From positions 1 through 64,000 of the forward strand of contig NZ_AUDS01000015.1 of assembly GCF_000425585.1 (NCBI RefSeq): a stretch of DNA of 64,000 nt. The letters run 5' to 3'. This document shows positions 45,499 through 64,000 of this stretch, one piece after another (position 1 is the first letter of the stretch; every line of letters begins with the position of its first letter). Both the position numbers and the translations under genes were made by a program. The stretch comes from Terrimonas ferruginea DSM 30193. Its GTDB lineage: Bacteria > Bacteroidota > Bacteroidia > Chitinophagales > Chitinophagaceae. The notes beneath the pieces were generated by a model. The model did not search any database, had not been told where the DNA came from, and saw only the letters and a program-made list of their open reading frames with translations.

Positions 45499-45530
45499 TA
45501 ACAGCCTTGGTTCATGTATACGCGAACCAG

Positions 45531-45546: not shown

Positions 45547-45550
45547 TGTT

Positions 45551-45627: not shown

Positions 45628-46500
45628 CGATTGCTTCCGCATCACGCTCGGCGTCATTCCCATGTATTTCCTGAACACGGTTGCAAAATACTGCGCATTC
45701 TGAAAACCTGTTTCAAATGCGATCGCTGCAATCGGCATCGCTGTTTTTCTCAGCAACTGCCGGGCATGTTCGATCTTGAACTTCATGATATAATCCAGCG
45801 GTGTTACCCCGGCTTCTTCTTTGAACCAGGCTTTGAAACGTGAAAGCGATAATCCTGTATGATCCGCGAGTTGCTGCAAGGTGATCCACTCATCCGGATG
45901 CTGACGTATGTAGCTGTCCACCTGCGACAGCCGTGCAGAGCGTTTACGCGTAGGGCGGCTGGCCGCACTTTTGATCACGGATTGTAATACGGTTGCCAAT
46001 GCCAGTTGCAATTCGATATGGTTAAAGGCTGAACGGTCCTGATCAAATAGCGTGAATACTTCATCGAGCAACGTTTTCAATCGTGGTGGCGCTTTGAAGT
46101 GTCGCGGAAGCTGTTTCAGTTGCTGCGCCCACGCCTGTGCCGATTTGTTTTCAAATTGCAGGAAACGATTTCCTTTCTCAGGCACACGCAGGATGATCCA
46201 ATACAGTTCACCTTTGCCTTCCGGGTAGGTGCCCGTTCCATGCCATTCACCGGGATGCGTTACAAAGCATTCGCCACCTTTTACTTTGTGTAGTCGTCCA
46301 CCCACTTCATATACTTGTTCGCCTTTGCTGCAATAAACGATCTCCAGCATATCCTTGTGCTGGTGTGCTGCCAGCGCTTCACGTGTACGGCGGTATTGAT
46401 ATTTTCCTGCCACCAATACGTCCTTCCATCCGCGGCGGCGGAAATCCAATATGCGGCGTTCGCCGGTTGAAGTGATATCGAGTGGGGTGATTTTCGGCAT
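45625..46500 (-). CDS. AraC-family regulator with cupin sensor, possibly of the second sugar locus
   Basis: About 291 residues. The N-terminus is a cupin-like domain (HQHKDMLEIVYCSKGEQVYE, CFVTHPGEWHGTG), and the C-terminus has two helix-turn-helix motifs (TLQQLADHTGLSLSRFKAWF, PIAAIAFETGFQNAQYFATV) and ends FRKYMGMTPSVMRKQS. It is divergent from the phytanoyl-CoA-dioxygenase-like gene (84 bases), so it probably regulates that gene. I start at 46500 because the longer frame is unlike the family. Confidence 0.9.
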   Translation of the reverse strand: MPKITPLDITSTGERRILDFRRRGWKDVLVAGKYQYRRTREALAAHQHKDMLEIVYCSKGEQVYEVGGRLHKVKGGECFVTHPGEWHGTGTYPEGKGELYWIILRVPEKGNRFLQFENKSAQAWAQQLKQLPRHFKAPPRLKTLLDEVFTLFDQDRSAFNHIELQLALATVLQSVIKSAASRPTRKRSARLSQVDSYIRQHPDEWITLQQLADHTGLSLSRFKAWFKEEAGVTPLDYIMKFKIEHARQLLRKTAMPIAAIAFETGFQNAQYFATVFRKYMGMTPSVMRKQS

Positions 46501-47553: not shown

Positions 47554-48630
47554 ATGAAGAAGAATAATAACGACAAGGCATCCGGAGGAGTGAAGGAAAT
47601 AGCCCGTCTTGCCAATGTTTCAATAGCCACGGTTGACCGGGTGATACACAACCGCGAAGGTGTTTCCCAGAAGACCAAGAACAAAATTCAGGAGATCATC
47701 CGCAAGCTCAACTACCAGCCGAATGTACTGGCACGAAGGCTGGCACTTGCTTCCCGCGGTACTTTGCGGCTGGCGGTGCTGCTGCCTACAGCTTCCAGCG
47801 AAACGGAATTCTGGCAGGCACCGCTCGAAGGAATCAACCAGGCGGAAACAGAGATCAAACAATACGGCATAGAGATCGAACGATATTTTTTTGATCAGAA
47901 CGATCAACGCTCTTTCGCAACGCAGGTGAAAAAGATCATTAAATCTGCACCGGACGGTATTTTGTTTACGCCCATCTTTCCCGATGAATCTGTCAACCTC
48001 ATCGAGAAAACACGTAAGGCCGGAACACCATACGTATTGATCAATTCCGATATTCCCGGATACGATTGCCTCTGCTATATCGGTGCAGAGATTTTCCAGA
48101 GTGGCTATCTCGCAGCACAGCTGATCAACTATGGCATACGCCGCAAACAAAAAGTACTGATTGCCAAAATCGCCCGGGAGATTGATAATAACTATGCCAT
48201 CCTGCGCAAAGAAGACGGCTTCCGGGCTTATTTTCAGAATAATAGTCTCCAAAACCAACTGGTGACATTCGATACCACGGAAACGGATTATGCCGCCGTA
48301 TCGCGCAAACTCGATCGTTTGCTGAAGAAGGAACAGGACATTGCTGCCATTTATGTTACCAACTCACGCGTATCACTGGTAGCACGCTACCTGGAACAGG
48401 CGGGGCTGAAAGATATTGTACTGATCGGATATGACTTTACCACGGACAACGTCGAACACCTGGATAAAGGCACGATCGACTTCCTGATCTGCGAAAAGCC
48501 GCAGGAGCAGGGATATAAAGGGATCATGACTTTATTCCAGCATCTTGTATACTCAAATCCGATTGAGAAAAATTACCTGATGCCGATAGATATTATTACA
48601 AGGGAGAATCATCGGTTTTACAGGAATTAA
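47554..48630 (+). CDS. LacI-family transcriptional regulator of the sugar locus
   Basis: About 358 residues. VKEIARLANVSIATVDRVIH and NREGVSQKTKNKIQEIIRKL are the helix-turn-helix and the hinge of the LacI/GalR family, followed by a periplasmic-binding-protein fold (LRLAVLLPTASSETEFWQAP, IDFLICEKPQEQGYKGIMTL). It ends ENHRFYRN. I start at 47554 because an earlier GTG at 47545 adds only three residues. It lies immediately upstream of the carbohydrate genes and is the likely regulator of the operators at 50672-50691, 57743-57762 and 59935-59954; this link is inferred. Its TAA stop begins a heptamer array. Confidence 0.92.
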   Translation: MKKNNNDKASGGVKEIARLANVSIATVDRVIHNREGVSQKTKNKIQEIIRKLNYQPNVLARRLALASRGTLRLAVLLPTASSETEFWQAPLEGINQAETEIKQYGIEIERYFFDQNDQRSFATQVKKIIKSAPDGILFTPIFPDESVNLIEKTRKAGTPYVLINSDIPGYDCLCYIGAEIFQSGYLAAQLINYGIRRKQKVLIAKIAREIDNNYAILRKEDGFRAYFQNNSLQNQLVTFDTTETDYAAVSRKLDRLLKKEQDIAAIYVTNSRVSLVARYLEQAGLKDIVLIGYDFTTDNVEHLDKGTIDFLICEKPQEQGYKGIMTLFQHLVYSNPIEKNYLMPIDIITRENHRFYRN

Positions 48631-48677
48631 GGCATAAGGTAAAAGGCATAAGGCGTAAGGTAGTAAGGTGTAAGGCC
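48628..48677. repeat. Heptamer repeats (TAAGGCA/TAAGGTA) starting on the LacI stop codon
   Basis: Seven units TAAGGCA, TAAGGTA, AAAGGCA, TAAGGCG, TAAGGTAG, TAAGGTG, TAAGGCC begin with the stop codon at 48628-48630. One unit is 8 bp. Confidence 0.8.
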
Positions 48678-48698
48678 CGACAGGCTGCGGCTTTTTAT

Positions 48699-48789
48699 TG
48701 ACGATTGACGATTCACGATTCACGATTGACGATTCACGATTGACGATTCACGATTGACGATTCACCATTCACGATTCACCATTCACGCT
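48699..48789. repeat. Second heptamer array (ATTGACG/ATTCACG/ATTCACC) in the LacI-48804 spacer
   Basis: About thirteen 7-bp units resembling TGAATCG/TCAATCG on the minus strand, like the array at 45551-45627. No minus-strand gene ends here, so this copy has no associated stop codon. Confidence 0.8.
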
Positions 48790-48803: not shown

Positions 48804-50657
48804 ATGAAGCAACTACTTCTTTCTTTATTTCTTTCAACAACCCTTCAGGCTCAAACGATTCATCCCTCCGCTGAATACGCCAACACACTTGAGCGGTTAT
48901 CCGCGAAATTGGTTCAGTTGCAACAACGCAACAGCCGGCAACCCGAATACGGCGGCATCTGGTGCGAGCACTGCCAGGTCTGGCACACACGCGCAGCAGA
49001 AGCTGTATTTCCTTTGACGGTATCCTATTTCATTACCAAAGACAAACACTATCTCCAATCGGCAAAGCTGGCCGCGGCCTGGTTATTCCGTCAGCAACAA
49101 AAAGATGGAAGCTGGAAAGAAACGCCCGAAGAATGGACAGGTACCACCACGGATCAATTGCTGATGCTGCTGCTTTCTTACGAAAAATTACAAACAGGGT
49201 TTTCATCGCAGGAAAAACAAGCATGGCAACAATCCATGCGTGCAGCGGCCGCATTCCTGCACCGCGTGATGCGCCCGGAGTTTGCCTCGATAAATTATGT
49301 CGCCACCACTACCGCCACATTGGCGAAAGCCGGATTGGTACTGAACGACACAAGCTTTACCAATCGCGCAAAAGAACTGGCACGCCGCACCATTGCCAAA
49401 ATGGATGAAGACGGATTTTTATATGGAGAAGGAGGGAAAAGCTATGGAAATAAAATGGGCATCGATCTCGGGTACAACATGGAAATGTCGTTGTGGGGGC
49501 TTGGCCTGTATGCCAAACTGACCAACGACACATTTGTATACAATCGGGTGCAAACGTCGCTGCAGCAACATTTATATTTTATTTATCCCAACGGTGCCCT
49601 CGATGCTTCCTGGGGTATCCGGTCCAATAAATGGACAGGTTATGGCAGTGCTACTTCCGATGGATGCCAGGCCTTGTTTAGCCTGATGGCTAAAGAAGAT
49701 CCGCGTTATGCAACAGCGGCCATGCGCAACCTGGAATTTCTCCGCAGGCATTTTACCAAAGATGGATTGCTGGGCTTCGGATTGCAATACGATGAGTTGT
49801 TTAATAAACCGCCGTGTATTTATCCAACTTTTGCTAAAGCAAAAAATTTAGCCATGGCCTATGAATGGGACAATGCGCCGGCCCGCAACGCCGCAGCACT
49901 GCCTGCTGACAGCACAGGCTGGATGAAATATTTTCCGTCACTCGATGTGGTGCAGGTGCGGACACGTACCATGATGGCGACAATCACGGCTTACCGCTAT
50001 AAAGATCCCGCGGGCACGAAAGGCAAGTATATGTATCGCCCCGCAGGCGGCGCTATCAGCCATCTCTGGCTGGAAGGAAATGATTTTCTGCAGGCTTCCA
50101 GTCCTACCGTATACACGCGCCCCGAGCCCATGAGCTTTCCCGAAGCGCCGGGTGTTGTGTCGCTTACACCACGCATTGAATACACAGACAGCCTCGGTTA
50201 TTTTACCAACCTGTACGAGTACGATGCAAGACTCACCGCCAAACAGGTCAACAAGACATTTTATGTTTCCGCTTTCGGCGAATTAAAAGATAAAAATTTT
50301 CTCACCGGTGGAATAGGGTATGGGCTTCATTATACATTCTCGGACAAAGCGCTCGAGAAAAAAGTGGAGATCACCTGGCATGATGCACGCCGTACGGTTC
50401 GTATCGTTGAACCATTTATTACCGGTGGCCGGCTGAAAGTGATACAACAGGATGCAAAAACAGTGATACTGGATTATGGAAATAAAAAACTGCGGTTGCA
50501 GATTACCGAAGGAAATGCCACATTGGTTTCGGGAGAACATGCAGCGAATTATTGGACACCATATCCGTCCTTACGGGCATGGCCGGTAGAGCTGATCATA
50601 TCACCGGACATAGATGCCTATAACGCTTTAGTACGCTATGTTATAGCCGAAATGTGA
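48804..50657 (+). CDS. Secreted all-helical protein with C-terminal beta domain (possible polysaccharide lyase or hydrolase)
   Basis: A 617-residue protein. The signal peptide MKQLLLSLFLSTTLQAQ is followed by about 370 residues of paired helices of alpha/alpha-toroid type (AAWLFRQQQKDGSWKETPEE, SINYVATTTATLAKAGLVLN, GYGSATSDGCQALFSLMAKE). The C-terminal 230 residues look beta-rich (ITAYRYKDPAGTKGKYMYRP, HYTFSDKALEKKVEITWHDA). An early cluster WCEHCQVWH with two Cys and one His is notable. The layout of toroid followed by beta-sandwich is that of several polysaccharide lyase families, but I recognise no family and no catalytic residue can be assigned. Confidence 0.75.
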   Translation: MKQLLLSLFLSTTLQAQTIHPSAEYANTLERLSAKLVQLQQRNSRQPEYGGIWCEHCQVWHTRAAEAVFPLTVSYFITKDKHYLQSAKLAAAWLFRQQQKDGSWKETPEEWTGTTTDQLLMLLLSYEKLQTGFSSQEKQAWQQSMRAAAAFLHRVMRPEFASINYVATTTATLAKAGLVLNDTSFTNRAKELARRTIAKMDEDGFLYGEGGKSYGNKMGIDLGYNMEMSLWGLGLYAKLTNDTFVYNRVQTSLQQHLYFIYPNGALDASWGIRSNKWTGYGSATSDGCQALFSLMAKEDPRYATAAMRNLEFLRRHFTKDGLLGFGLQYDELFNKPPCIYPTFAKAKNLAMAYEWDNAPARNAAALPADSTGWMKYFPSLDVVQVRTRTMMATITAYRYKDPAGTKGKYMYRPAGGAISHLWLEGNDFLQASSPTVYTRPEPMSFPEAPGVVSLTPRIEYTDSLGYFTNLYEYDARLTAKQVNKTFYVSAFGELKDKNFLTGGIGYGLHYTFSDKALEKKVEITWHDARRTVRIVEPFITGGRLKVIQQDAKTVILDYGNKKLRLQITEGNATLVSGEHAANYWTPYPSLRAWPVELIISPDIDAYNALVRYVIAEM

Positions 50658-50671
50658 TTTTTTTTGTTAAA

Positions 50672-50691
50672 AAACGTGTACGTACCCGGAA
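50672..50691. promoter_or_regulatory. Candidate LacI operator upstream of the isomerase-GH28 unit
   Basis: AAACGTGTACGTACCCGGAA aligns to the perfect site at 57743-57762 with 14 of 20 identical bases and the complete right half CCGGAA. The flanks AATTG and TCTAT are also shared with that site. It lies 39 bases upstream of the isomerase ATG. Confidence 0.6.
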
Positions 50692-50729
50692 ATTGTCTAT
50701 TTTCATGTCTTCCTGTTAAATTGTCTGCC

Positions 50730-51659
50730 ATGCCTGTACGTTTTTCTTCTTCCATTACCTGCGCGTATCTCTATCCGATCACGCGTTACGGCTATCCTCC
50801 CGATGTAAGCAAAACCAATGCACATCTGGAAGAAATGGCCGGCATGGGTTTCAACTCCCTGGAGTTGGAAGGCATCGGTGGTGACAATATCCTTTATCAG
50901 CACAAACACCGCAAACAACTTGCTGATAAGGTAAAAGAACTGGGGTGTACCATTCCCGTTTATTGCGTGGTGTTACCTGCGCTGGCTTCTGCCGATCCTG
51001 AAAGACAAAAAGAGGCCTTGGCTTTTTTTGAGATGGGATGCGAAACCGCCAGGTCATTGGGCGCTACCGCCGTACTGGATAACGGCCCGTTGCTGCCGCT
51101 GGAGTTTCCGGCCGAAGCGCCGGTTAAAAGACATTACGACGATAAATACCTTGCGTCACTCGGCCTGCCAGCCGGTTTTTCCTGGGATGAGTACGAACTG
51201 CGTTTGACCCGCACGTATCAACAGGCCTGCTCTATTGCAGAACATTACGGACTCGATTATCACCTGCATCCCTGTGAAGGAAGCATGATTACCAATACAG
51301 ATTCTTTCCTGCATTTCGCCGACAAGGTAAACGCAGACAACCTGCTTTTCAACCTCGATACCGCCAACCAGTTTTTCTTTCGCGATAACCTCGTCATCAG
51401 TCTGCTGCGTTTGCGCAACCGCATCGGTTATGTGCATCTATCGGACAATCGCGGCACGCGCGTTGAACACCTCGTGCCGGGCGAAGGATCGATTCATTGG
51501 GATAGTTTTTTCTCTACCCTGAAAGCGATCGGTTTTAATGGACACTATGGAATTGATGTTGGCGGTGCCGAAACACCGATTACAGATATTAAAGCGGCTT
51601 ACCTCCGTTCAGCACAGTGGCTGGAGGAACAACTGACCGCGTATTCTTTAATGAATTAA
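50730..51659 (+). CDS. Sugar phosphate isomerase/epimerase (TIM barrel)
   Basis: About 309 residues of the AP-endonuclease-2-like family. EMAGMGFNSLELEGIGG, DYHLHPCEGSMITNTDSFLH, LLFNLDTANQFFF and GYVHLSDNRGTRVEHLVPGE hold the Glu, His and Asp metal ligands. There is no signal peptide, so it is cytoplasmic. It probably isomerises or epimerises a product of the adjacent hydrolases; the sugar is unknown. I start at 50730, because the longer frame contains the operator. GH28 follows after 10 bases. Confidence 0.85.
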   Translation: MPVRFSSSITCAYLYPITRYGYPPDVSKTNAHLEEMAGMGFNSLELEGIGGDNILYQHKHRKQLADKVKELGCTIPVYCVVLPALASADPERQKEALAFFEMGCETARSLGATAVLDNGPLLPLEFPAEAPVKRHYDDKYLASLGLPAGFSWDEYELRLTRTYQQACSIAEHYGLDYHLHPCEGSMITNTDSFLHFADKVNADNLLFNLDTANQFFFRDNLVISLLRLRNRIGYVHLSDNRGTRVEHLVPGEGSIHWDSFFSTLKAIGFNGHYGIDVGGAETPITDIKAAYLRSAQWLEEQLTAYSLMN

Positions 51660-51669
51660 TCAACCAGTC

Positions 51670-53229
51670 ATGCGATTGAATTGCCTGTCTTTGTTACGAC
51701 GAACTTTTTTTGTACTAGGTTTCTTTGTGCCTTATTTGCTGAATGCGCAACCGCTTTACGATGTCACGCGTTTCGGTGCCGTCGGTGACGGTACAACCGA
51801 TAACACCGCCGCTATTCAGCGTGCGATCGACAGCAGCGCTAAAACCGGCGGTAAAGTTTTTTTTCCGACCGGCACCTTTCTGAGCGCAACACTTTATCTC
51901 AAAAGCAACGCAACCTTGCATTTGTCTGCTGGAGCCGTTTTGCTGGGCCAGGCTGATGCATCAAAATATCCTTACCAGGATCCGGGTATTCCCTTTTACG
52001 GCGACCAATGGGCAAAGCAGGCGCTGATCTTTTGTAAAGGACAGGAAAATGTTACCATCGAAGGAAAAGGTACGATAGACGGACAAGGCGCCCGCTTTGT
52101 TGTTAACACCATTAAAAAACCGGATCGTTATAAAAACCGTCCATATCTCTTATGGTTCGCCGGTAGTAAAAACATCACCGTAAGAGATGTGAGCCTGCGC
52201 AATTCTGCCTTCTGGATGCAGCATTATCTCGGTTGCGAATTTGTATTGATCGACGGTATTCATATCTGGAATCATTCCAATAAGAACAATGATATGATCG
52301 ATATCGATGGCAGCAGGAATGTAACTATCACCAATGTAACCGGTGATTCAGATGATGACGGCATTACCATAAAAAGTACGTCTCCGCGTATTTCAGAAAA
52401 TATTACCATTACCAATTGCATCGTCAGCAGCCATTGCAACGGTATTAAGTTTGGTACGGAATCTACGGGCGGTTTCCGCAATGTAACCGTCAGCAATTGC
52501 GTGATCCGTCCTTCGGCACAACGCCAGACCATCTACGGTAAACCGGATGGTATAAGCGGACTTGCACTGGAAGTAGTGGATGGCGGCATCATGGAAAATA
52601 TCACCATCAGCAACCTCATCATCGAAGGACCGCAGGTGCCGATCTTTATCCGCCTCGGAAACCGCGCACGTAAGTTCAGCGATACGGCTGCTGCTCCGTC
52701 AATCGGCCGCATCCGTCATATCCGTATTTCAGATATCATCGCCCGGGGTGCCGACACGATCGGGTGTTCGATCTCCGGATTGGAGAAAGTGCCTGTAGAA
52801 GATATCACCCTGAGCAATATCACCATCGAAACTTCCGGCAGCGATATCGCCGCTAAACCATTCTCTGCCGTTGTACCCGAACGTGAAGAAGATTATCCGG
52901 AAGCGACCATTTTCGGTAAATTACCTTCGTATGGCCTGTATGTCCGTTATGCAAAAGATATACAATTACACAACATCGTTTTGCGTCACAAAGGAACAGA
53001 ACAACGCCCCGGCATCATGCTCGATCGCGTGCAGCGTTTTCAATTGACAGGGCTGGACATCCAGAACTCATCCACTGCACCGGCTGCGGTTGCCATTGCC
53101 AGATCTGCGGAAGGAACCATCACGAACGCAGGCAGGATTGAAGGGTTGACCAACCGGCTGCGTGCCGTACGTTTTGTCGTGCGTGACAACAATACCACCA
53201 ACGTAATGGTCGATAATAAACGTCTCTGA
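51670..53229 (+). CDS. GH28 polygalacturonase-like hydrolase
   Basis: A 519-residue secreted protein. LPYLLNAQ-like signal peptide, then YDVTRFGAVGDGTTDNTAAI starts the right-handed beta-helix. The catalytic Asp cluster is at D208 (NNDMIDID) and D228-D230 (SDDDGITIKS), with H255 in SSHCNGIKFGTES where GH28 usually has GHG. It cleaves galacturonic acid linkages in pectin or rhamnogalacturonan, probably as an exo-enzyme. GH105 follows after 11 bases. Confidence 0.93.
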   Translation: MRLNCLSLLRRTFFVLGFFVPYLLNAQPLYDVTRFGAVGDGTTDNTAAIQRAIDSSAKTGGKVFFPTGTFLSATLYLKSNATLHLSAGAVLLGQADASKYPYQDPGIPFYGDQWAKQALIFCKGQENVTIEGKGTIDGQGARFVVNTIKKPDRYKNRPYLLWFAGSKNITVRDVSLRNSAFWMQHYLGCEFVLIDGIHIWNHSNKNNDMIDIDGSRNVTITNVTGDSDDDGITIKSTSPRISENITITNCIVSSHCNGIKFGTESTGGFRNVTVSNCVIRPSAQRQTIYGKPDGISGLALEVVDGGIMENITISNLIIEGPQVPIFIRLGNRARKFSDTAAAPSIGRIRHIRISDIIARGADTIGCSISGLEKVPVEDITLSNITIETSGSDIAAKPFSAVVPEREEDYPEATIFGKLPSYGLYVRYAKDIQLHNIVLRHKGTEQRPGIMLDRVQRFQLTGLDIQNSSTAPAAVAIARSAEGTITNAGRIEGLTNRLRAVRFVVRDNNTTNVMVDNKRL

Positions 53230-53240
53230 AAATAAGCCGT

Positions 53241-54899
53241 ATGAAACTTAACAGGTATATCGCTTGCATGATACTGCTGTTGTGCGGCACTTATGCCGGT
53301 GCGCAGTCTGCCCTTCAAGTGGTGCAGCGCGTGGCTGACAAAGTGATCCGTGACACGCGGTTCAGTTTTAGCCGCGTGCCCCGTCCCGACGTACTCGGTA
53401 TGCAGGTTGTTGATTTCAGGTCACTGGCATTGACACCGGGACAGCAGGCGGTGGCGGAAACTGTATTCATTACTGATAAAGATGGAAGTTTCATGCTGGG
53501 CATCAGCAGCGGCATGCCGTTTAGCCTTTACCATGATGGGGCATTGGTTTATGAACAAAGTGACGGTATTGCCTTCAAACCTTATGAATATGCCTACAAC
53601 CGGTTTCAATTCGATACGGTTATTCATGTGCGGTTGAAAGCCGGTAGCAATAAGTTTAGTTTGAATGCAAAAAGAACGGGTGTTGCACCGGTCCTGTTTT
53701 TCCGTTGGATTACGGAGGCAGGTGATATTGATAATAATGTTCGTGCAACAACGCAACCCGCCGGTTGGTTGATGGCCGGGCCTGTTGATAATCTGGTAGC
53801 GTACCCGCCCTCTGGCAAAAATGCCTGGCAACTCGCACCGCAGTTTTACCTTGCCGGGCTGGATACCGACAGCAACGCGGCGTATCGCCGCGATCCGTAT
53901 TCCGACTGGCATTATTCACACGGCGCATTGGTGTGGAGTATTCAGCGCCTGGGAGAATTTTTGAAAGACAGCAGTTACACCGGATACGGAAACCGGTACA
54001 CCGATAATGTGCTGAACAACCTCGATTATTTCCGCTGGCAATATGATTCATTATTTGCCTACCGTGGTAGCTATCATCGCATCTTCCGCAGTTCCATGCT
54101 CGACGACGCAGGCGCACCGGCTTTACCTCTTTTTGCAAACGGCGCGGATCAGCGGAATCGCGCCTTACTCGATAAGCTGAATGCTTTTATCATGAACCGG
54201 CAACCGCGTTTGGCCGATGGTATATTCTGCCGTCCCGAACCGGTTGCGTACACGGTGTGGGCGGATGATCTGTTTATGAGCGTGCCGTTCCTGCTGGGCA
54301 TGCAAAAGCTCACCAATGACGATACCTATCGCAATGAAGCCATCCGGCAAGTCCTGGGCTTTGCGCGTTACATCAGGGATCCGCAAACCGGCTTGTATTA
54401 CCATGGATGGTTTCAGGCCACCGGTAAACCTTCAGGCGTCTTCTGGGGCAGGGCCAACGGCTGGGTGGCCTGGGCAATGGCGGAACTGCTCGATAACCTG
54501 TCGCCCAAACACCCGCAATACAAGGCGGTACTCAAACTTTATACAGCACACATGCAATCGCTGCTCCGCTACCAGGACACAGACGGGAGTTGGCATCAGG
54601 TACTCAACAAAAAAGAATCTTATAAAGAAACATCCTGCACGGCATTGTTTGCCCTTGCCATGGCGAGAGGCGTGCGGAAAGGATGGTTACCTGCCTCTTT
54701 TGCCGTACCCGCAAAAAAAGCATGGAGTTATGTTGCTTCGCAAATAAATGAACAAGGGGTGGTTAAAGGTATTTGCCAGGGGACGGAGATTGGTGAAGAT
54801 GTTTCCTTTTATGAAAAAAGAAAAACGATCGATAACGATCCGCGCGGTCTGGGCGCGGTGATCACCGCCGGACTGGAGATAGCAAGATTGGAAAAATGA
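53241..54899 (+). CDS. GH105/GH88-type unsaturated uronyl hydrolase with an N-terminal beta domain
   Basis: A 552-residue secreted protein (signal MKLNRYIACMILLLCGTYAG). The first 190 residues form a beta-rich extra domain. The catalytic (alpha/alpha)6 toroid follows: DDLFMSVPFLLGMQKLTND, GVFWGRANGWVAWAMAELLD and HQVLNKKESYKETSCTALFA are diagnostic of GH105. The Asp pair in WADDLFM corresponds to the catalytic region. It removes unsaturated uronic acid ends left by a polysaccharide lyase; no known lyase family is obvious in the window. The stop overlaps the next start (ATGA). Confidence 0.9.
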   Translation: MKLNRYIACMILLLCGTYAGAQSALQVVQRVADKVIRDTRFSFSRVPRPDVLGMQVVDFRSLALTPGQQAVAETVFITDKDGSFMLGISSGMPFSLYHDGALVYEQSDGIAFKPYEYAYNRFQFDTVIHVRLKAGSNKFSLNAKRTGVAPVLFFRWITEAGDIDNNVRATTQPAGWLMAGPVDNLVAYPPSGKNAWQLAPQFYLAGLDTDSNAAYRRDPYSDWHYSHGALVWSIQRLGEFLKDSSYTGYGNRYTDNVLNNLDYFRWQYDSLFAYRGSYHRIFRSSMLDDAGAPALPLFANGADQRNRALLDKLNAFIMNRQPRLADGIFCRPEPVAYTVWADDLFMSVPFLLGMQKLTNDDTYRNEAIRQVLGFARYIRDPQTGLYYHGWFQATGKPSGVFWGRANGWVAWAMAELLDNLSPKHPQYKAVLKLYTAHMQSLLRYQDTDGSWHQVLNKKESYKETSCTALFALAMARGVRKGWLPASFAVPAKKAWSYVASQINEQGVVKGICQGTEIGEDVSFYEKRKTIDNDPRGLGAVITAGLEIARLEK

Positions 54900-57706
54900 A
54901 AGGACTTATCATCATATTAAACGTAATGCTGCTGAGTTGCATCTCCTGCTCACAGCAAAAGAATAACATCAATTATTCTTTTGACATGGGCGCTCCGGGT
55001 ACGGTACCGGCAGAACGTTACCAGCGTGTCGATCCTTCGCAACAATATACGGCAGCGCGTGGCTGGGGATGGTTGACGGCAACCGCCGGTTATTCCGACA
55101 GCACCAATAAAAAATTATCCTCGCCTCTTTACAGCAACGGCGTTTACGGCGCCGACAGCCTGGTCTTTCGTGCAGATGTAACCAACGGTGATTACTGGTT
55201 AACCGTGATCGCAGGTTCCGGCCGGCTTATCGATACCTCAACGATGACGATAGCCGTAAATGAAGAAAGATGGCCGGATACGATACAGTTGCCCTGGGAG
55301 CGCCTGGCCTTCAGAACAGTTGCTCATAAAGTAAAGGTGCGCGATGGAAAAGTAATTGTAGCAGTAAATGGCAAACGGGCGTCTGTCTGCGCGATCGAAT
55401 TGAAACCCGTTATGCGCTGGCCTGCCATGAAATTTACCACGCCACTCGAAACGGATACGCTCGATGTGCAGCAACAGGTCGCCAACTGGGAAAAGGCCGG
55501 GGACACCACTTCTACAGTTCAATATAACCTGTTGCAGGATTGCCGCCGTTATCTGCTTGCCTGTAGCTATGTGAGTGGCGGTGGTTGGTCGTGGGCATCG
55601 AAGAAAACCGGCATGAGTGCCATACACCGTTGTTTCGCCGCAGCCGATCTGTTGGCTGCGATCACGGCAGATGAGAACCATCCCTTACATGACCGTGCAA
55701 CTTACCTGCTCGCGCGTGTGTATTACTGGCTCGATCTCGAATCGGGTTACGATGATCTGGAGAAGCTTGCGAAAAAATATTTCAATGAACTCCAGGAAAA
55801 ATATCCGGATCACACAGTGCTGAAAATGTACCGTGGTGAAAAGATCGCCAACAGCAATGTGGCTTTGGACAAAAGCGATGCCCCCTCATGGGCGGTAGCG
55901 CAACGCGAAGCCATGACCCGTATGCTGAAATTGATCGAATGGTGGGTAACACAAAGGCAGACGCCTAATGGTGAACTCGGTGGAAAGTATGGGGATGATG
56001 TGGAGATACTGCGCTGGTGGTTACCAGCCGTACTCGGAGCCGACGACAGCCTCGCACGACTGGGCTATACGCGGTTGGCCGATGGTGTCTGGAACAGCGA
56101 TGCCATGGATCGCGGCTTTGCACGGCGTATCGATGATGTGGAACATGCGGCAGAACTTTTTCGCGATACACATCCCGGTATGTTTATGGTGCAGTACGGC
56201 GATCCCGAATATGTGGAACGTTGTCTGATCAGTATGCAGCATTTCCAGAATGTATGGACATCCGTTAATGAAACAGGGCACCGTCATTTCAAATCGTATT
56301 ATTTATCTGCCAGCAAAGTATTGGACAGCCTTCCTTTCGATGTGGATGTGGCGCTGAATGCCAGAGCCGTACTTCCGGGTCTCTGGGCAACCTGGTATAG
56401 CCAGCATCCGAGGATGCTGCAATTATTTGGAGAATGGTGCAAGGCATGGATCGAAGATGCTGCCCGGGCGGGTAATGGAAAACCAGCAGGAGTACTGCCT
56501 TCTGCCATCCGTTATCGTGATGACCGCATCGGCGGCTACAGCGATAAATGGTATGAGCCGGGGCTTAGCTATGATTACTATCAATGGGACCACCTTTCGC
56601 ACGTCAACGAACTGTTGTATCATATGCTGGGTATGTATTCATTGACGGGCGATAAACAATACCTGCAACCAACGGCCTTACTAGCCAAGTGGATGAATGA
56701 GCCGGTGCCTGCCACAGCCGGTGAGCCAGGCTCCGAACAATGGGTACGTTACCAGTTGAACAGGGGAGGGCATGAGGATAATCCCGTATTGCACCCGATG
56801 TCGAAATTATTTTCGATGGCTTTGCAATTGACGGGCGATACGCTTTACACCAAACTTGTTAACCGGTATGGTCAGGCGTTCAATAAATATACAACCGATG
56901 GTGATGTGACCTGGTTGGAAAAAGGACTGAACGATGTACTGGAATCACTGCGCTATAATTTCCCTTTGCAAACAAGCGAAGCCTTGTTTACGGATCGTAT
57001 TTACGTGAAAGGCAGTAATGTACTGATGGGGATGTATACAGGCCACTTCGGTGCGGGATATGAATTTCCCGGCATGGCGGTGAGCTGGAAGAATACGGGA
57101 ACGAATGTGTCTGTATTTGTGCGGGATGCAACGGATACCAGTTTGCATATCTCCCTGTACAACTTCGATGCGGCCAAAGACGTGGTAATGCAAACCTGGC
57201 GGCTGAAACCCGGGCGGTATACCGTAAGCATAAGCACAGAAGATAAAACAGGTAACATCTCAGATACGAAAGAACAGGAACTGATCGTTAATGAGCAAAT
57301 GGAAGCGACACGTCTTTCGTTGCAGGCCCGGCGCGGTTATCGCGTTACGGTTAAGCCGGTTGAATTTTTCAATAGCCATGTTTCCAGAAATCTTGCCGAT
57401 ATAGCCATTGCGCCGCGTGATGTGAGCTTTACAGATAAGGCGGTATATTATCGTATACATAATATCGGCAGTAAAGAAGCGCGTAATGTAAAGGTGATCC
57501 TGCTTGCCGATGGGAAAGAAATCGGGCAGCAACAAATAGCCGTACTGGCTGCACCTTTGGACCTGGTGCCACGTATTCATGAAGGGAATTTTCCGTTTGA
57601 ACTGATCCGCGGCCACCACAGGCTGACCATAAAAATTGAGACGACGGATAACGAAATTACGAAGTTGAATAACGAGACATCCGTGATGGTAAATGTGCTG
57701 CTTTGA
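54896..57706 (+). CDS. 936-residue lipoprotein, malectin/esterase-type N-domain plus helical catalytic-like domain
   Basis: A lipoprotein signal (LNVMLLSCISCSQQ) anchors the protein. Residues about 25-170 form a galactose-binding-like domain (INYSFDMGAPGTVPAERYQR, YGADSLVFRADVTNGDYWLT) resembling the N-domain of rhamnogalacturonan acetylesterases. Residues about 190-650 are helical, with CSYVSGGGWSWASKKTGMSA, GKYGDDVEILRWWLPAVLGA and YEPGLSYDYYQWDHLSHVNE. Three beta domains follow to the C-terminus, ending with a CARDB-like segment. The rest has no family I know. The start overlaps the GH105 stop by 4 bases. It may be a lyase or hydrolase that produces the GH105 substrate; this is inference. 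Confidence 0.8.
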   Translation: MKGLIIILNVMLLSCISCSQQKNNINYSFDMGAPGTVPAERYQRVDPSQQYTAARGWGWLTATAGYSDSTNKKLSSPLYSNGVYGADSLVFRADVTNGDYWLTVIAGSGRLIDTSTMTIAVNEERWPDTIQLPWERLAFRTVAHKVKVRDGKVIVAVNGKRASVCAIELKPVMRWPAMKFTTPLETDTLDVQQQVANWEKAGDTTSTVQYNLLQDCRRYLLACSYVSGGGWSWASKKTGMSAIHRCFAAADLLAAITADENHPLHDRATYLLARVYYWLDLESGYDDLEKLAKKYFNELQEKYPDHTVLKMYRGEKIANSNVALDKSDAPSWAVAQREAMTRMLKLIEWWVTQRQTPNGELGGKYGDDVEILRWWLPAVLGADDSLARLGYTRLADGVWNSDAMDRGFARRIDDVEHAAELFRDTHPGMFMVQYGDPEYVERCLISMQHFQNVWTSVNETGHRHFKSYYLSASKVLDSLPFDVDVALNARAVLPGLWATWYSQHPRMLQLFGEWCKAWIEDAARAGNGKPAGVLPSAIRYRDDRIGGYSDKWYEPGLSYDYYQWDHLSHVNELLYHMLGMYSLTGDKQYLQPTALLAKWMNEPVPATAGEPGSEQWVRYQLNRGGHEDNPVLHPMSKLFSMALQLTGDTLYTKLVNRYGQAFNKYTTDGDVTWLEKGLNDVLESLRYNFPLQTSEALFTDRIYVKGSNVLMGMYTGHFGAGYEFPGMAVSWKNTGTNVSVFVRDATDTSLHISLYNFDAAKDVVMQTWRLKPGRYTVSISTEDKTGNISDTKEQELIVNEQMEATRLSLQARRGYRVTVKPVEFFNSHVSRNLADIAIAPRDVSFTDKAVYYRIHNIGSKEARNVKVILLADGKEIGQQQIAVLAAPLDLVPRIHEGNFPFELIRGHHRLTIKIETTDNEITKLNNETSVMVNVLL
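54993..55012. promoter_or_regulatory. Operator-like site inside the 936-residue gene
   Basis: CTCCGGGTACGGTACCGGCA matches the site at 57743-57762 at 17 of 20 positions. It lies 97 bases after the start codon and encodes APGTVPA, so the match may come from codons alone. Confidence 0.4.
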
Positions 57707-57742
57707 GAGGGAGATTAAGAAAAAATTATATTTTTTTGAAAT

Positions 57743-57762
57743 TTCCGGGTACGTTACCGGAA
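57743..57762. promoter_or_regulatory. LacI operator upstream of the GH20 unit
   Basis: TTCCGGGTACGTTACCGGAA has inverted-repeat arms AATTTCCGG / CCGGAAATT (57740-57765) around a central ACGT, typical of LacI-family sites. It lies about 140 bases upstream of GH20. An identical 20-mer occurs at 59935-59954. Confidence 0.75.
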
Positions 57763-57899
57763 ATTGCTCTATATTAGTGTTACTAACGATTGAAGAGGGT
57801 AAAGAAGCTGCGTTTTGTGAAGGCTTGCCATAACCTTGAAGCGAACTTTCTTTCCGTCCGATATATATTCTCTTGTAGTTAAAAAGGCCTGGACCCCGA

Positions 57900-60413
57900 A
57901 TGATTATTAGCAGAAATAGCTTGCTGTGTATCTTGCTGTTGTTGGCGGCTGTGTGCCATGCGCGCGAGTTGCCGGTACTGCCCAAGCCACAGTATATTCA
58001 GTCCTCACAGGGCAATGCTTTGTTTTCCCCCAACTTCCGTTTCGTTTTTAAAAACGTATCCACCGATACCACTCAATGGTTAAACCGCCATTGGCAAAGT
58101 GGAAAGAAGACGGGTACGCAGGCAGCCTTTACCGTTGGCCTCCTGGGCAAAGACGCCGCCTTCGATGCGCAGGTAACAGCGGTGATCGATTATGCCAGAC
58201 ACCCGCTGGGTGACGAAGGCTATGTGCTGATCAACAAGGACGGCCGGCGTATGCTTGCCGCCTACACCGGCAAAGGATTGTTTTATGGCATTCAATCCCT
58301 GCGACAGCTTACACGTAGTGGCTGGGACAAAGAAATTGTAATAGCCGACTGGCCGGACTTTGCGCATCGCGCAGTTTATGACGATATCAGTCGCGGCCCT
58401 GTCTCTACCGTTGATTATGTAAAAGAACAGATCCGCCGGATGGCAGAACTCAAGATCAACAATCTTTCTTTTTATATAGAACATGTGGTGCAGCCATTGT
58501 CGCACCCCGACTTTGCACCGGCGCAGGGAAAATTCACCATCGCGCAAATAAAAGAACTGTCTGCTTACGCACGTGACTACAATATGCAACTGGTTGGCAG
58601 TTTTCAGTCGTTCGGTCATTTTGAAAAAATACTGGCCCTGCCGCAATACCGTTCGATGGGAGAGACCTCCACACTCATTTCTCCATTGGATCCGCGCGCA
58701 AAACAGTTCCTCGAAAATGTGATAGGCGAATTATGCGACGCATTCAGTTCTCCTTATTTCAATGTTAACTGCGATGAAACATTTGATCTCACAAAAGGCC
58801 GCTCCAAGCCATATATCGATAGTGTGGGTGCTGCGCGTTTCTATGCCGACCACCTGAAATTTCTCTATGATGTGGTTAAGAAAAAAGGCAAGCAACTGAT
58901 GATGTGGGGCGATATAGCGCTCGAGCACGAAGAAGTATTGGATATGTTACCTAAAGACGTGATCTACCTCACGTGGGAATATGGAGAGAAATCTTCTTAT
59001 GCCAATTGGATCGATCCATTTGTACGCCGTGGTTTGCAATATGTGGTGTGCCCCGGTGTATTGAATTCATACCGGATGTTTCCGGACATGGTAATGGCCC
59101 GCGCCAATATCGATGGTTTTGCTTCCGAGGGAAAAGCAAAAGGAGCAATGGGCGTTTTAACAACCGTATGGGACGATGGGGGCACTTATCTTTTCTCCGG
59201 CGATTGGTATGGCATATATGTCGCGGCAGAAAAAAGCTGGAATGCCGCGCCATTGGAAAAATCCACTTTCAACAAACGCTTTGAAGACATCGCTTATGGC
59301 ATGTCGGATGGACGTTATGTAAAGGCTTTATTTCAGTTAATGGAACTGCGTTCGTTGCCGCTGACCTATAATCTCAACGATCAACTGTGGCAGCAAAAAA
59401 TACTTCCACAGCCCGGTAAACAATTAATACTGAACAATGACTCCGCGCCTGAAGCGCTTGCCATTCTCGATTCGGCAAAACATACGCTGAAGGATGCGAA
59501 ACCCCGTTTGAACGAGACTGATATCCGTACCCTACTTTATTCCATCGATCAGTACCGCATCATGATGCAGACACGCCTGGGCATTGCCCGCATCGTGCAA
59601 TCCTACCAGGCCTTACCGGCCAGCGGCGTGCAGCGTGCTGCTGAATTGAAAAAGAGTATCGCCGTCACCAGCGACCTGCTGACGGAGTACCGCCGTTTAC
59701 GGGCCGGCTTCCGGAAAGCCTGGCTGCAGGAAAACCAACCGCATTGGCTGGATACGGCCTGCCTTCCTTACGATCGCAAAATTGCGGCACTGGAAACACT
59801 GCAGCAATCTTTGCAAGCGTTGGTAAAAAACAACAGCAGCGTTTTGCCCACGGCCTCTTCGCTGACATTGGATATCCGTGTTACGAACCAGTTCTTTTTC
59901 AAAAACTGGATGCTGACCGGTTTTTTTGCCGGTGTTCCGGGTACGTTACCGGAATTTTTGTACGCTGAAAACGAGGAATATAATAAGCCTCCGTCTCCGG
60001 GCGATTTCACCACCTTCAAAGGCAAAAATTACCGCTGGCAGAAATATTCTTCCACCGAAGGAGGTATCACCGACCTCGATGCGTGGTTCAATGCTCCCAA
60101 AGGGGCTGCGGTGTATGCTTATTGCTCTATCACGACCACCAATGCGGAAACGGTCAACGCTTATCTTGGAGCGGCACAACCCGCGGAAGTTTTCTGCAAC
60201 GGTGTGAAAATCCTGCGCACGGAAGGCAAAGCGGATGAGCAGATGATTCGTTTGCCCTTAACCGCCGGCGTCAACCACCTGCTGATAAAACTCAACAAAG
60301 CGGAAGATCGTCCGTGGATGTTTACCTTCCGGCTGGATGACCAGATCAAAGTGACGAACCACAAACACAAATATCAACTGAATGCTAAAATCAAAACATA
60401 TGAAGCGGACTAA
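57900..60413 (+). CDS. GH20 beta-N-acetylhexosaminidase
   Basis: An 837-residue secreted protein. The signal peptide runs MIISRNSLLCILLLLAAVCH. The GH20b domain (about 25-140) precedes the catalytic barrel. YFNVNCDETFDLTKGRSK holds the catalytic pair D292/E293. VYDDISRGPVSTVDYVKEQI and LTWEYGEKSSYANWIDPFV are family features. It removes GlcNAc or GalNAc from glycan ends by substrate-assisted catalysis. The C-terminal 200 residues form an extra beta-sandwich, perhaps for binding. An operator-like 20-mer lies inside at 59935. The stop overlaps the next gene by 14 bases. Confidence 0.93.
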   Translation: MIISRNSLLCILLLLAAVCHARELPVLPKPQYIQSSQGNALFSPNFRFVFKNVSTDTTQWLNRHWQSGKKTGTQAAFTVGLLGKDAAFDAQVTAVIDYARHPLGDEGYVLINKDGRRMLAAYTGKGLFYGIQSLRQLTRSGWDKEIVIADWPDFAHRAVYDDISRGPVSTVDYVKEQIRRMAELKINNLSFYIEHVVQPLSHPDFAPAQGKFTIAQIKELSAYARDYNMQLVGSFQSFGHFEKILALPQYRSMGETSTLISPLDPRAKQFLENVIGELCDAFSSPYFNVNCDETFDLTKGRSKPYIDSVGAARFYADHLKFLYDVVKKKGKQLMMWGDIALEHEEVLDMLPKDVIYLTWEYGEKSSYANWIDPFVRRGLQYVVCPGVLNSYRMFPDMVMARANIDGFASEGKAKGAMGVLTTVWDDGGTYLFSGDWYGIYVAAEKSWNAAPLEKSTFNKRFEDIAYGMSDGRYVKALFQLMELRSLPLTYNLNDQLWQQKILPQPGKQLILNNDSAPEALAILDSAKHTLKDAKPRLNETDIRTLLYSIDQYRIMMQTRLGIARIVQSYQALPASGVQRAAELKKSIAVTSDLLTEYRRLRAGFRKAWLQENQPHWLDTACLPYDRKIAALETLQQSLQALVKNNSSVLPTASSLTLDIRVTNQFFFKNWMLTGFFAGVPGTLPEFLYAENEEYNKPPSPGDFTTFKGKNYRWQKYSSTEGGITDLDAWFNAPKGAAVYAYCSITTTNAETVNAYLGAAQPAEVFCNGVKILRTEGKADEQMIRLPLTAGVNHLLIKLNKAEDRPWMFTFRLDDQIKVTNHKHKYQLNAKIKTYEAD
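59935..59954. promoter_or_regulatory. Internal operator-like 20-mer inside GH20
   Basis: TTCCGGGTACGTTACCGGAA, identical over 20 bases to 57743-57762, is 2192 bp downstream of it, within codons for VPGTLPE. A protein-coding coincidence is possible but unlikely for 20 exact bases. Confidence 0.6.
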
Positions 60414-61650
60414 TTTACTGGCATGCTGGCTGACCGGATTGCTTGTTGCGGCATCGCCTGTTGCTGATGCCCAGGTGAAGAAAGAAGAGGTGACACGCGC
60501 CATTAACGAAACGGCAGTTTACATCAAAGACGTATTACTCGATAGCGAAGGAAAGTCCCGCTGCGATTATAATATGACCGAAGGCAAATGGTATCCTTAC
60601 GAAGTACCCTGGCATACAGGTCAGGCCGTGCTGGCCTTACTGCAGGCATATAAAGCTACCGGCAACCAGGAATATCTCGCTTCTGCCAAAAAAGGAGGCG
60701 ATTATTGGGCAAGCCTCGAAATCAAAGATCATCCGAAACTGAAGGGTATGGTCAATGCCATTCACGGAGATGCACTCGGTGATGATTTCATCGTTTTCGC
60801 CACCGTTTCCGACGGCACACCCGGTATTTATGAGTTGTCCCGCGTTACCGGCGATAAAAAATATGCACGCGTGGCGACCAATGCCGCTTCATGGATGCTG
60901 GCCAACATGTATTATCCGGAGAAAGGTGTTTGTTATGATAACATCGATGCCAAAACCGGTGAAGTATTGAAAGAGTACAGCCCGTTCTGGAAGAAGATGG
61001 ATAAGAAAGATCAGCAATTGATCAATGTATCCCGTCCGAATACCGAAGGGTATCTTTTCAAAGAAGCTTTCGAATTTTCCGGTGAAAAGAAATTCAGGGA
61101 TGCTTATATCAACCTATGCAACAGCCTGATTGAAAAGCAAGGCCCCGAAGGTGTGTGGATGCAGTTCATGCCCAACTTCGCCGACGTTCATTCTTTCCAT
61201 CCGCGTTTTTCGTTGTGGTATGCCGAATCGCTGATCGAGGCATTCAAACTCACCGGCGACCGTAAATACCTCGAGGCCGCGGCAAAGACCGCCCGCACTT
61301 TTGCTAAAGCACAACAAAAAGACGGAACTATTTTTTATGATAATTATACCAATGGCCGCGCCCCGGACAAAGGTTCCGTTACCGGTTCCGCCACATCTCT
61401 TGCGGGTATCGTATGGATCGGTCTTTCAAAAGAAGGGTATAAGGAATTTGACCAGCACATCGAGCGTTCAGCCGAATGGGTGATCAATAACCGCTATGGC
61501 CAGGAACATCCTGACGTGAATCTGCGCGGTGCTGTTATCGAAACACGTATCCGTTTCAAAAAAGGAAAAGTATGGCTGACCAACCGTGATATCGGTACGT
61601 CATTCGCGCTGCGTTTCCTTGTCGACTACAAGAATTTTAAACAACTATAA
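60400..61650 (+). CDS. Secreted all-helical (alpha/alpha-toroid) protein of unknown activity
   Basis: About 416 residues with a signal peptide (NLLACWLTGLLVAASPVADA). The rest is a set of helical hairpins: WHTGQAVLALLQAYKATGNQ, GIYELSRVTGDKKYARVATN and PRFSLWYAESLIEAFKLTGD, as in glycoside hydrolases and uronyl epimerases of the toroid type. I see no diagnostic family motif. It overlaps the GH20 stop by 14 bases and precedes the TonB receptor by 46 bases, so the three genes form one unit. A glycan-processing role is likely. Confidence 0.78.
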   Translation: MKRTNLLACWLTGLLVAASPVADAQVKKEEVTRAINETAVYIKDVLLDSEGKSRCDYNMTEGKWYPYEVPWHTGQAVLALLQAYKATGNQEYLASAKKGGDYWASLEIKDHPKLKGMVNAIHGDALGDDFIVFATVSDGTPGIYELSRVTGDKKYARVATNAASWMLANMYYPEKGVCYDNIDAKTGEVLKEYSPFWKKMDKKDQQLINVSRPNTEGYLFKEAFEFSGEKKFRDAYINLCNSLIEKQGPEGVWMQFMPNFADVHSFHPRFSLWYAESLIEAFKLTGDRKYLEAAAKTARTFAKAQQKDGTIFYDNYTNGRAPDKGSVTGSATSLAGIVWIGLSKEGYKEFDQHIERSAEWVINNRYGQEHPDVNLRGAVIETRIRFKKGKVWLTNRDIGTSFALRFLVDYKNFKQL

Positions 61651-61696: not shown

Positions 61697-64000
61697 ATGA
61701 AAAAAGCTAGTCTGCGATTGCTGTTACCGCTGCTGCTGGTAGCACTTTCTCTTCCCTTTTTTGCTGCCGCCCAGTCGGGAAACGGTAACATCAAAGGACA
61801 AATCACAGATACCGATGGTACCACACTGCCAGGTGCCTCCGTATCCATTAAGGGTACCACCAGGGGGGTGACGACCGACCTCTCCGGTAATTTCGAATTG
61901 TTGAGCGTGAAAGCGGGCAAGTACACGCTCGTGATCAACTACATGGGCTACAAAGAAAGCCAGTTGGAAGTGGAGGTGAAAGCCGGCCAGACTGTCACCA
62001 ACGATGTAAAACTTGAATCTACGATGGTCAGCCTGAAAGGGGTGACTATGACTTCCGTTCGTGAAGGACAGGGCAAAGCGCTGAACCAGCAACGGAATGC
62101 CGATAATATCAAACAGGTTATTTCTGCCGACCTGATAGGCCGTTATCCGGATCTCAACGTGGCGGAAGCCATGCAGCGTCTCCCGGGCGTGACCATCGGA
62201 CGCAATACCAGCGGTGAAGGTTCTACGGTTCAACTTCGTGGTACGCCAGGCAACTTCACCAACATCAACGTGAACGGTGAACAAATCATGGGTACACAGG
62301 AAGGCGGACAACGTAACGCTGAACTGGACGTTATTCCGGTGAACGTGCTTGCTTCGATGGAAGTGGTGAAAACATTAACACCCGACCTGGATGGTGACGC
62401 CATCGCCGGTGCCATTAACATGAAGTCGCCTACCGCCACTTCGCTGAAAACAAAATTCACGCTCGACGCAGGTTTGGGCTACAACGACCTGCGCGGAAGC
62501 CTCAACGGTATCGGTAACGTTACTGCAGGCAAACGTTTTTTTGCCAATGCACAAAATCCTAACGGACGTCTCGGTGTAATGGTAACAGGCAGCTGGTACC
62601 GTACCAAAAACGGATACGATGACCAGCGTTCTGAAGTATGGCAGGCAAAAGACTTCGGAGATGGCAAAGGCCAGATTTATTTTCCTACGGATGTGCGCCT
62701 GCTCTATGTAGAGAACCTGCGGACACGCCGGGGTGCCTCTGCTACCATTGATTATAATTTCAGCCCCGTTACCAATATCGTGGCCAACGTGATGTACAGC
62801 GATCACTTCAATGAACTGACGCGCTACCGCAAACGTACACGTATGCAAACGGCCAATACCACTTACAACCAGACTACCGGTTTGTATACCACCACCCGTG
62901 GCCGTGGTTACAATGAGATCAAGGCCGCTACGGAAGATAACAGCAACCTCAACTTCAATATTTCCGGTGAAACAAAAATCGGCCGTGTGAAACTGGATGC
63001 GGGTGTTTTCATGAGCAACTCTTCTTTCGAAAATATTTCAGGCACCTACAATTTCATTACCGGTAATATTGCCCTGGAGATTGCTGATATTCACAGCGAC
63101 TTCCTGAAACCGGGAGGAGTGGACTGGAAAAATAACGCATCACTTTATACCTACAATACAGTAGAACGTGACTACTGGAATACCGAAGGTAAAAACGCGG
63201 TTGGGCGCATCAATGCCTCTCTTCCTTATAAAATCGGCAAGAACTCTGCTACTTTCCAGACCGGTTTCAAAGTGAAGCGCATGCACAATAGCCGCTGGCG
63301 CCCGGAGACCGCACTGGTGAGCAACTATTCCGGTGTGGCCGCAGACGGACGTCTGACCAATTTCACCGGCAAACCTGAAGTATCTGCCGACCTGCTCGAC
63401 GGTAACAACAATTTCGGCCTTGGTGCAGATCGCGACAAAACCATCGCTTTCTTCGAGAACAACCAGAACACACGTTTCACGCAGGATATGGCCGGTACGC
63501 GTAAAATGATCGATACGTATTTCTATGACGCGGTTGAAACCGTTACATCAGGATATGTAATGAACCGTATACAGTTCAACCGCTTCATGTTACTCGGTGG
63601 TCTGCGCGTAGAGAAAACAGACGTGGATTACCAGGGTAATATCGTGGCAGAAGATGCCAACGGTGTTTGGTTGTCTACCACACGCACACGCAAACAAACC
63701 GATTACGTTCGTTTCCTGCCCAACATCCAGGGTAAATATGATCTGAACAAAAGTTCCCTGATCCGCGCGGCACTGACTTATGGTTACTCACGTCCCAATT
63801 TTGTGGACCTGGTACCCGGCCGTGTAACGAGCATCCTGAGCCAGACGGTAACAGACGGCAATCCCGAACTGAAGCCGGCTTTCGCAACTAACGTAGACCT
63901 GATGTATGAAAAATACCTGTCTAACCTGGGTATCCTTTCTGCAGGCCTGTTCTACAAAAAAGTGGAGAAGTTCCAGTATGCCAGTGTTACTACGATCGAA
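61697..64000 (+). CDS. TonB-dependent receptor (SusC-like), C-terminus outside the window
   Basis: An open frame of 768 codons runs to the window edge. Signal peptide MKKASLRLLLPLLLVALSLP, then a carboxypeptidase-regulatory-like domain (GNIKGQITDTDGTTLPGASV) and a plug domain with RYPDLNVAEAMQRLPGVTIG, a sequence found in TonB receptors of the TIGR01782 type. The barrel begins with FTLDAGLGYNDLRGSLNGIG. It probably imports an oligosaccharide from the adjacent hydrolases. No SusD gene is within the window; it could lie just beyond. Confidence 0.93.
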   Translation, partial: MKKASLRLLLPLLLVALSLPFFAAAQSGNGNIKGQITDTDGTTLPGASVSIKGTTRGVTTDLSGNFELLSVKAGKYTLVINYMGYKESQLEVEVKAGQTVTNDVKLESTMVSLKGVTMTSVREGQGKALNQQRNADNIKQVISADLIGRYPDLNVAEAMQRLPGVTIGRNTSGEGSTVQLRGTPGNFTNINVNGEQIMGTQEGGQRNAELDVIPVNVLASMEVVKTLTPDLDGDAIAGAINMKSPTATSLKTKFTLDAGLGYNDLRGSLNGIGNVTAGKRFFANAQNPNGRLGVMVTGSWYRTKNGYDDQRSEVWQAKDFGDGKGQIYFPTDVRLLYVENLRTRRGASATIDYNFSPVTNIVANVMYSDHFNELTRYRKRTRMQTANTTYNQTTGLYTTTRGRGYNEIKAATEDNSNLNFNISGETKIGRVKLDAGVFMSNSSFENISGTYNFITGNIALEIADIHSDFLKPGGVDWKNNASLYTYNTVERDYWNTEGKNAVGRINASLPYKIGKNSATFQTGFKVKRMHNSRWRPETALVSNYSGVAADGRLTNFTGKPEVSADLLDGNNNFGLGADRDKTIAFFENNQNTRFTQDMAGTRKMIDTYFYDAVETVTSGYVMNRIQFNRFMLLGGLRVEKTDVDYQGNIVAEDANGVWLSTTRTRKQTDYVRFLPNIQGKYDLNKSSLIRAALTYGYSRPNFVDLVPGRVTSILSQTVTDGNPELKPAFATNVDLMYEKYLSNLGILSAGLFYKKVEKFQYASVTTIE

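Follow-up and report, generated by a model that had tools for sequence, protein, structure and literature searches.

Conserved candidate LacI-family operators, and a third copy inside a GH20 gene, at a glycoside hydrolase locus of Terrimonas ferruginea

LacI-family repressors mostly bind even palindromes with a central CG, and less than 1% of the catalogued sites fall in coding regions, those in lacZ and purB being named (PMC4052901, in the portions consulted). We describe candidate operators of this form, 20 bp long, in a 64,000-nucleotide stretch of Terrimonas ferruginea DSM 30193 (contig NZ_AUDS01000015.1, positions 1 to 64,000; hereafter the window): operator A, ahead of an isomerase–GH28 gene unit; operator B, ahead of a GH20 gene; and an exact copy of B that, unlike most catalogued sites, lies in coding sequence, within GH20 (Table 1). 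The lac repressor loops between O1 and O2, the latter located inside lacZ, the first of the structural genes under repression. The internal copy likewise sits inside a gene of the unit that it would regulate, but it duplicates the promoter operator exactly and lies about 2.0 kb inside the gene, and its presumed regulator lacks a LacI-type tetramerization region. The PurR site in Escherichia coli purB works as a roadblock. Like the internal copy, which has no promoter box of its own, it falls within a coding region and downstream of the promoter; regulator and gene differ, and the promoter here carries its own identical operator. The predicted Bacteroides LacI regulons KdgR, UxaR, UxmR, and UxuR, whose regulators govern glucuronate, galacturonate, or mannuronate use, are a further comparison, the consulted portions of PMC3878776 giving no motif or internal sites.

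A and B have the form of LacI-type operators: even 20-bp palindromes with a central CG, upstream of the genes that they would regulate. B ends 137 bases before the GH20 ATG, and A begins 61 bases upstream of position 50733, the probable ATG of the isomerase. A mechanical frame starts earlier, at TTG 50664, and isomerase homologues align from the 50733 start only, the query being the protein that begins there. The B sequence, TTCCGGGTACGTTACCGGAA, is the longest dispersed exact repeat in the window once heptamer arrays, local repeats (0.4–1.2 kb), repetitive sequence around 35.4 kb, and a self-palindrome of 20 bases at 32697 are set aside, and 100 shuffles of the window gave zero matches to it at three or fewer mismatches. 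The palindrome score of A, AAACGTGTACGTACCCGGAA, is 25.6 against 25.7 for the exact copies, so the sites are of equal strength. These observations bear out the original prediction of an exact 20-mer upstream of GH20 that recurs 2192 bp downstream within the gene, of a 14/20 variant upstream of the isomerase–GH28 unit, and of a LacI-family gene at 47554, whose product has both the DNA-binding and the sugar-binding domains of the LacI/GalR family.

That A and B are shared LacI operators is strongly supported, both by their conservation across genera and by their occurrence together with the LacI gene. Relatives were drawn from a family sample of 294 or 394 genomes, itself taken from a larger group; the genus sample comprised two genomes, the second of which gave no match at E 1e-60. 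At that threshold, 8 of 294 family genomes, counting the window's own, have a GH20 homologue, as do two Chitinophaga records; the LacI protein was found at E 1e-80 in 23 of 294. The regulator gene stands at the GH20 locus in G084, G160, G085, G029, G174, G267, and the two Chitinophaga records, eight loci in all. G077 has GH20 and p416, with no LacI gene within its 20 kb and none genome-wide at E 1e-80. In every LacI-bearing locus (8/8), the isomerase/GH28 unit has an A-type site upstream of it; in the Chitinophaga loci, in which the isomerase gene was not found, the site precedes GH28. B stands before GH20 in four of the eight, identical in G084 and G160 and with one or two changes in the Chitinophaga records. 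No B precedes GH20 in G085, G029, G174, or G267, and the second site is then found beside A (G029, G174, G267) or between LacI and p617 (G085). The operators paired upstream of the isomerase unit are 171 bp (G029), 76 bp (G174), and 92 bp (G267) apart.

Scanning with a matrix built from promoter sites of other genomes, whose training took in 15 of the relatives' 16 sites, returned at a score of at least 16 exactly two sites in each of the eight LacI-bearing loci, all outside the nine mapped genes, and zero in G077. In the window the same scan returned A, B, the internal copy, and a weaker match at 46219 (18.0). When one genus at a time was left out of training, the same two sites remained the best of each relative, with scores from 15.2 to 27.6; G085 was lowest (16.5 and 15.2, with a further match at 12.7), and the best score in G077 was 5.4. 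G085 also stands alone in its recognition helix, VSTATVDRV, against VSIATVDRV in the window and seven other loci, and in its operator core, CACGT (L021 sites 5142, 7239, and 7331), against TACGT elsewhere. The isoleucine-to-threonine change and the altered core are perhaps a natural change of specificity, and a single event. Strong sites outside the cluster that were followed up precede a GH127 gene in G267 (L126) and a GH88 gene in G174 (L127); they fit a pectin regulon, which may reach beyond the cluster in some relatives. Taken together, A and B are very probably LacI-family operators. The predicted sharing of an operator is thus well supported for 50672 and 57743 and is not supported for the 54993 site, discussed below.

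Short elements accompany these sites. A T7G tract precedes A, B, and the internal copy, and −7-box-like elements (TATTTTCA and TATATTAG) follow A and B. TAnnTT is found 6–8 nt after the operator at 10/10 sites of the five B-bearing genomes, the window included, and a run of at least five T residues lies at a gap of 5–9 nt upstream of 12 of 18 intergenic operators. Flavobacteria have a similar −7 box, TAnnTTTG (PMC9723704, in the part consulted). With a T-tract upstream and a −7-like box downstream, operators A and B of the window are placed where a repressor would cover the promoter.

From the sites, their conservation, and their co-occurrence with the regulator, all of which can be read in the sequence, we infer binding, repression, and a roadblock as follows. 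The LacI-family protein encoded at 47554 would repress a pectin-type utilization locus through two promoter operators, with A controlling isomerase–GH28–GH88–p936 and B controlling GH20–p416–TonB receptor. Bound between the T-tract and the −7-like box, the repressor would occlude the promoter. Such repression at A and B is the best-supported part, and we hold it with high confidence. The internal copy, about 2 kb into GH20, with a T-tract and without a −7-like box, is likely to bind the same repressor because it is identical to B. There it would serve as an auxiliary site, mainly a roadblock, cutting leaky transcription into the end of GH20, p416, and the receptor when no inducer is present. 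A roadblock is the best-fitting effect because no promoter box follows the site, p416 and the receptor lie close behind, and LacI roadblocks are known in E. coli, where inhibition reaches up to 25-fold (PMC4132739, in the part consulted). To this overall reading, repression through A and B with the internal copy as an auxiliary and mainly roadblock site, we assign a probability of about 0.5.

The internal copy, known from one genome, is probably a lineage-specific copy of B. Its seven codons, encoding VPGTLPE, show a mean agreement of 25% with the homologues, at the 17th percentile of GH20, and one proline alone is invariant. Given that the site is absent from nine homologues and the peptide is poorly conserved, inherited protein constraint does not explain it. 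Across 394 family genomes, the 20-mer occurs six times at one or fewer mismatches. Five of these occurrences are upstream of genes: B itself (three genomes), one site just before a likely SusC-type start (G378), and one between divergent genes (G160). The sixth is the window's GH20 copy, the only one deep in a gene. G378 has a LacI homologue (49%) elsewhere in its genome, and the corresponding site, L063, falls on codons 21–27 of a mechanical frame, ahead of the likely later start of the SusC-type gene. L066 was rejected as an in-frame match, as it is upstream of both neighboring genes once starts are considered.

The surroundings of the internal copy bear on its origin. The 16 nt upstream of it resemble those upstream of B more closely than do 99.4% of random GH20 places, and the downstream flanks do not match. 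A run of at least six T residues 5–9 nt upstream is found for 5 of 2473 GH20 positions (~0.002), that is, for one tract; T7G occurs 15 times in the window. No TAnnTT lies within 21 nt after the internal site, a weak test in that 8 of 18 intergenic operators also have no box. The likeness of flank and T-tract, recognized post hoc, suggests that a patch of promoter B was copied into GH20. A strong rival to a regulatory role starts from the same event: the promoter B stretch, T-tract and operator, would have entered GH20 by template switching or short-patch conversion and would now bind the repressor with no regulatory effect. Such a neutral leftover would account for the exact identity in the same orientation with both asymmetric half-sites, though the model permits other sequences (1.2 bits per position), and for the T7G and matching flank beside both copies. 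Just before the site, 9/9 homologues have GP[FL] where the window has GFF, which argues that a longer patch was remodeled, and no site scoring at least 16 lies inside the mapped genes of the eight LacI-bearing relatives' loci. The differing downstream flanks speak against it, as does the lack of a known intermediate, and identity ends at the operator edge, as selection for binding would also produce. We consider a purely neutral copy possible but on the unlikely side. Our tentative suggestion is that a patch of ~34 bases, operator plus T-tract, was copied into the enzyme gene, replaced a conserved protein motif, and was kept as a roadblock.

The original prediction raised looping in the style of lacO2, in which the repressor would bridge the 2.2 kb between B and the internal copy. 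An exact second operator copy would suit this idea, and two-site arrangements recur among the relatives (76, 92, and 171 bp in G174, G267, and G029). The LacI-type tetramerization helix follows the core domain, at the C-terminus. In the 47554 protein, the match to NF007075, an NCBIfam LacI subfamily, ends at profile position 329 of 358, with 7 residues of the regulator beyond it, and the orthologues read have like C-terminal ends. Looping appears distinctly improbable because the regulator has no residues left for such a helix: it lacks the part of the subfamily profile that is C-terminal to the core domain. What stands of the proposed intragenic operator is a site that appears to be real, lineage-specific, and identical to B.

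Several points weigh against repression at A and B with an auxiliary internal roadblock. Near relatives account for three pairs among the eight loci (the Chitinophaga loci, G084/G160, and G174/G267). Column-shuffled matrices gave medians of 6.8–8.3, 95th percentiles of 13.1–14.4, and maxima (among 200) of 17.8–25.8 in the same loci, so that single scores, above all those of G085, are not decisive. The T-tract and box patterns were noticed post hoc, and TAnnTT follows 0/8 sites of the four loci without B. A function for the internal copy has no backing from conservation, the copy being found in one of ten GH20 homologues (0/9 relatives), and a roadblock 2 kb into a gene could be read through. 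A model made from 16 sites of other genomes, applied to 150 of 2790 first-look candidates, put A at the head of the genome with 17.2 bits and gave B and the internal copy a shared second place with 16.0. This ranking speaks for the three sites, but the next entries, in other genes, reached 15.6 and 15.5 bits, barely below the internal copy. The latter is distinguished from chance by identity and place, not by score alone. Coding by itself, given the peptide, averages a match of ~15/20, and when whole GH20 genes were resampled, 23 of 300 contained a match of 17 or more somewhere.

These last figures raise the reading that the VPGTLPE codons merely happen to spell the operator. Codons for P-G-T-x-P do resemble it, and unrelated in-gene look-alikes with three mismatches exist, such as HPGTLPV in what we take to be a GatB-like gene (L007). 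Against such a coincidence, the exact match has P = 2.7e-4 given the peptide, with 7 of 20000 synonymous resamplings exact; the peptide was not inherited from the family; and the 394 genomes hold no other deep-in-gene copy at one or fewer mismatches. Chance combined with coding is accordingly a very remote explanation. Coding constraint was offered at the outset as a part-explanation; the peptide brings the average match to ~15/20, and inherited constraint does not explain the site.

The 17/20 variant predicted inside the 936-residue gene is present at 54993 and was rejected as an operator. Its core reads ACGG, with T invariant in 16/16 operator sites of other genomes, as is the central CG; it scores just 11.5 despite its 17/20 match, against 22.3–28.9 for the training sites; and neither its position nor its peptide, APGTVPA, is conserved. 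The match is probably due to chance, though still somewhat unusual, with just five places outside the locus reaching at least 17/20 in the genome. Genome-wide, eight places match at three or fewer mismatches, three of them in the locus, and a reversed control gave 0. The search for the motif elsewhere in the genome revealed no wider regulon: two of the five outside places are terminator-like hairpins and three are inside genes, including the GatB-like one. The 24 entries of the model ranking, a list that may be incomplete, include at least 17 other distinct places, 15 in open frames and 2 intergenic; the frame test over-calls genes, since it placed A in the TTG 50664 frame and likewise assigned mechanical frames to A-type sites in G085 and G267. 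A 14-base core at one or fewer mismatches gave 43 forward and 45 reverse matches against 5 and 13 in the control, and 29 loci were retained. The matches at 46219, in an AraC-type gene (18.0), and at 47042, in the PhyH gene (15.8), were taken as coding coincidence; PhyH matches comparable to the latter score 15.4 in G160 and 8.1 in the two Chitinophaga records. An operator-like, hairpin-flanked site between genes for an acetyl-CoA hydrolase/transferase and a GntP permease (L102, G000 C10:94176) may be a terminator.

The genes of the locus run in the order PhyH, LacI, p617, TIM-barrel isomerase, GH28, GH88, p936, GH20, p416, and TonB receptor (Table 1). Its substrate would be pectin-like, an inference only, because the BT4146 match of GH28 falls below its cut-off. 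Neither p617 nor p936 matched a Pfam domain above cut-off, an NCBIfam family, or a PDB sequence; both family-less proteins are kept in several relatives. Arrays of heptamer units occur between genes at 45449–45633 and 48628–48787 and also near 20580 and 37980; their types are ATTGACG/ATTCACG, AATAAGT, and GTGAATG, and some units are common to distant spaces. Direct repeats of 80, 43, 31, and 25 bases lie within ~1 kb at the start of the window (388–1240).

Table 1. Operators, neighboring promoter elements, and genes of the locus (window coordinates)
Feature	Coordinates	Strand	Remarks
Operator A (AAACGTGTACGTACCCGGAA), 14/20 variant	50672..50691	+	precedes isomerase-GH28-GH88-p936; top-ranked in the genome (150 of 2790 candidates scored)
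Operator B (TTCCGGGTACGTTACCGGAA)	57743..57762	+	precedes GH20; identical in G084 and G160
Intragenic third copy of operator B (TTCCGGGTACGTTACCGGAA)	59935..59954	+	GH20 codons 679-685, VPGTLPE
17/20 look-alike	54993..55012	+	in 936-residue gene; core ACGG instead of ACGT
T7G tract upstream of A	50659..50666	+	ends 5 nt before site
T7G tract upstream of B	57731..57738	+	ends 4 nt before site
T7G tract upstream of internal copy, within coding sequence	59921..59928	+	ends 6 nt before site
TATTTTCA, -7-box-like element (TAnnTT), after A	50698..50705	+	
TATATTAG, -7-box-like element after B	57770..57777	+	same 8 bases 7-8 nt after B in all 5 B-bearing genomes
LacI-family regulator gene	47554..48630	+	LacI HTH PF00356 (64 bits) and sugar-binding core Peripla_BP_4 PF13407 (156 bits); presumed binder
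p617, 617-residue protein	48804..50657	+	no family match
Sugar isomerase/epimerase-like TIM barrel	50733..51659	+	PF01261
GH28	51670..53229	+	nearest NCBIfam is rhamnogalacturonidase BT4146, below its cut-off
GH88 family protein	53241..54899	+	PF07470
p936, 936-residue protein	54896..57706	+	no family above cut-off
GH20 gene	57900..60413	+	PF00728, PF02838
p416, alpha/alpha-barrel type protein	60400..61650	+	overlaps GH20 stop; weak GH88 and C5-epimerase matches
TonB-dependent receptor	61697..64000	+	PF07715, PF13715; continues past window end

The literature consulted gave no account of this locus, nor of an operator within a gene in Bacteroidota, although one may have been published. The gene control described here is of a real but largely familiar kind, and the internal copy would be a further case of the known coding-region LacI operators, with an unusually clear lineage-specific origin, in a Chitinophaga relative. 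For these bacteria, the sites outline a LacI regulon, well footprinted, at a locus that is probably of pectin type. The internal copy offers a clean case of one lineage with a full-strength operator sequence within coding sequence, and the comparison with relatives bears on how coding-region operators arise. If the patch was indeed copied, regulatory DNA would have rewritten protein sequence in one lineage.

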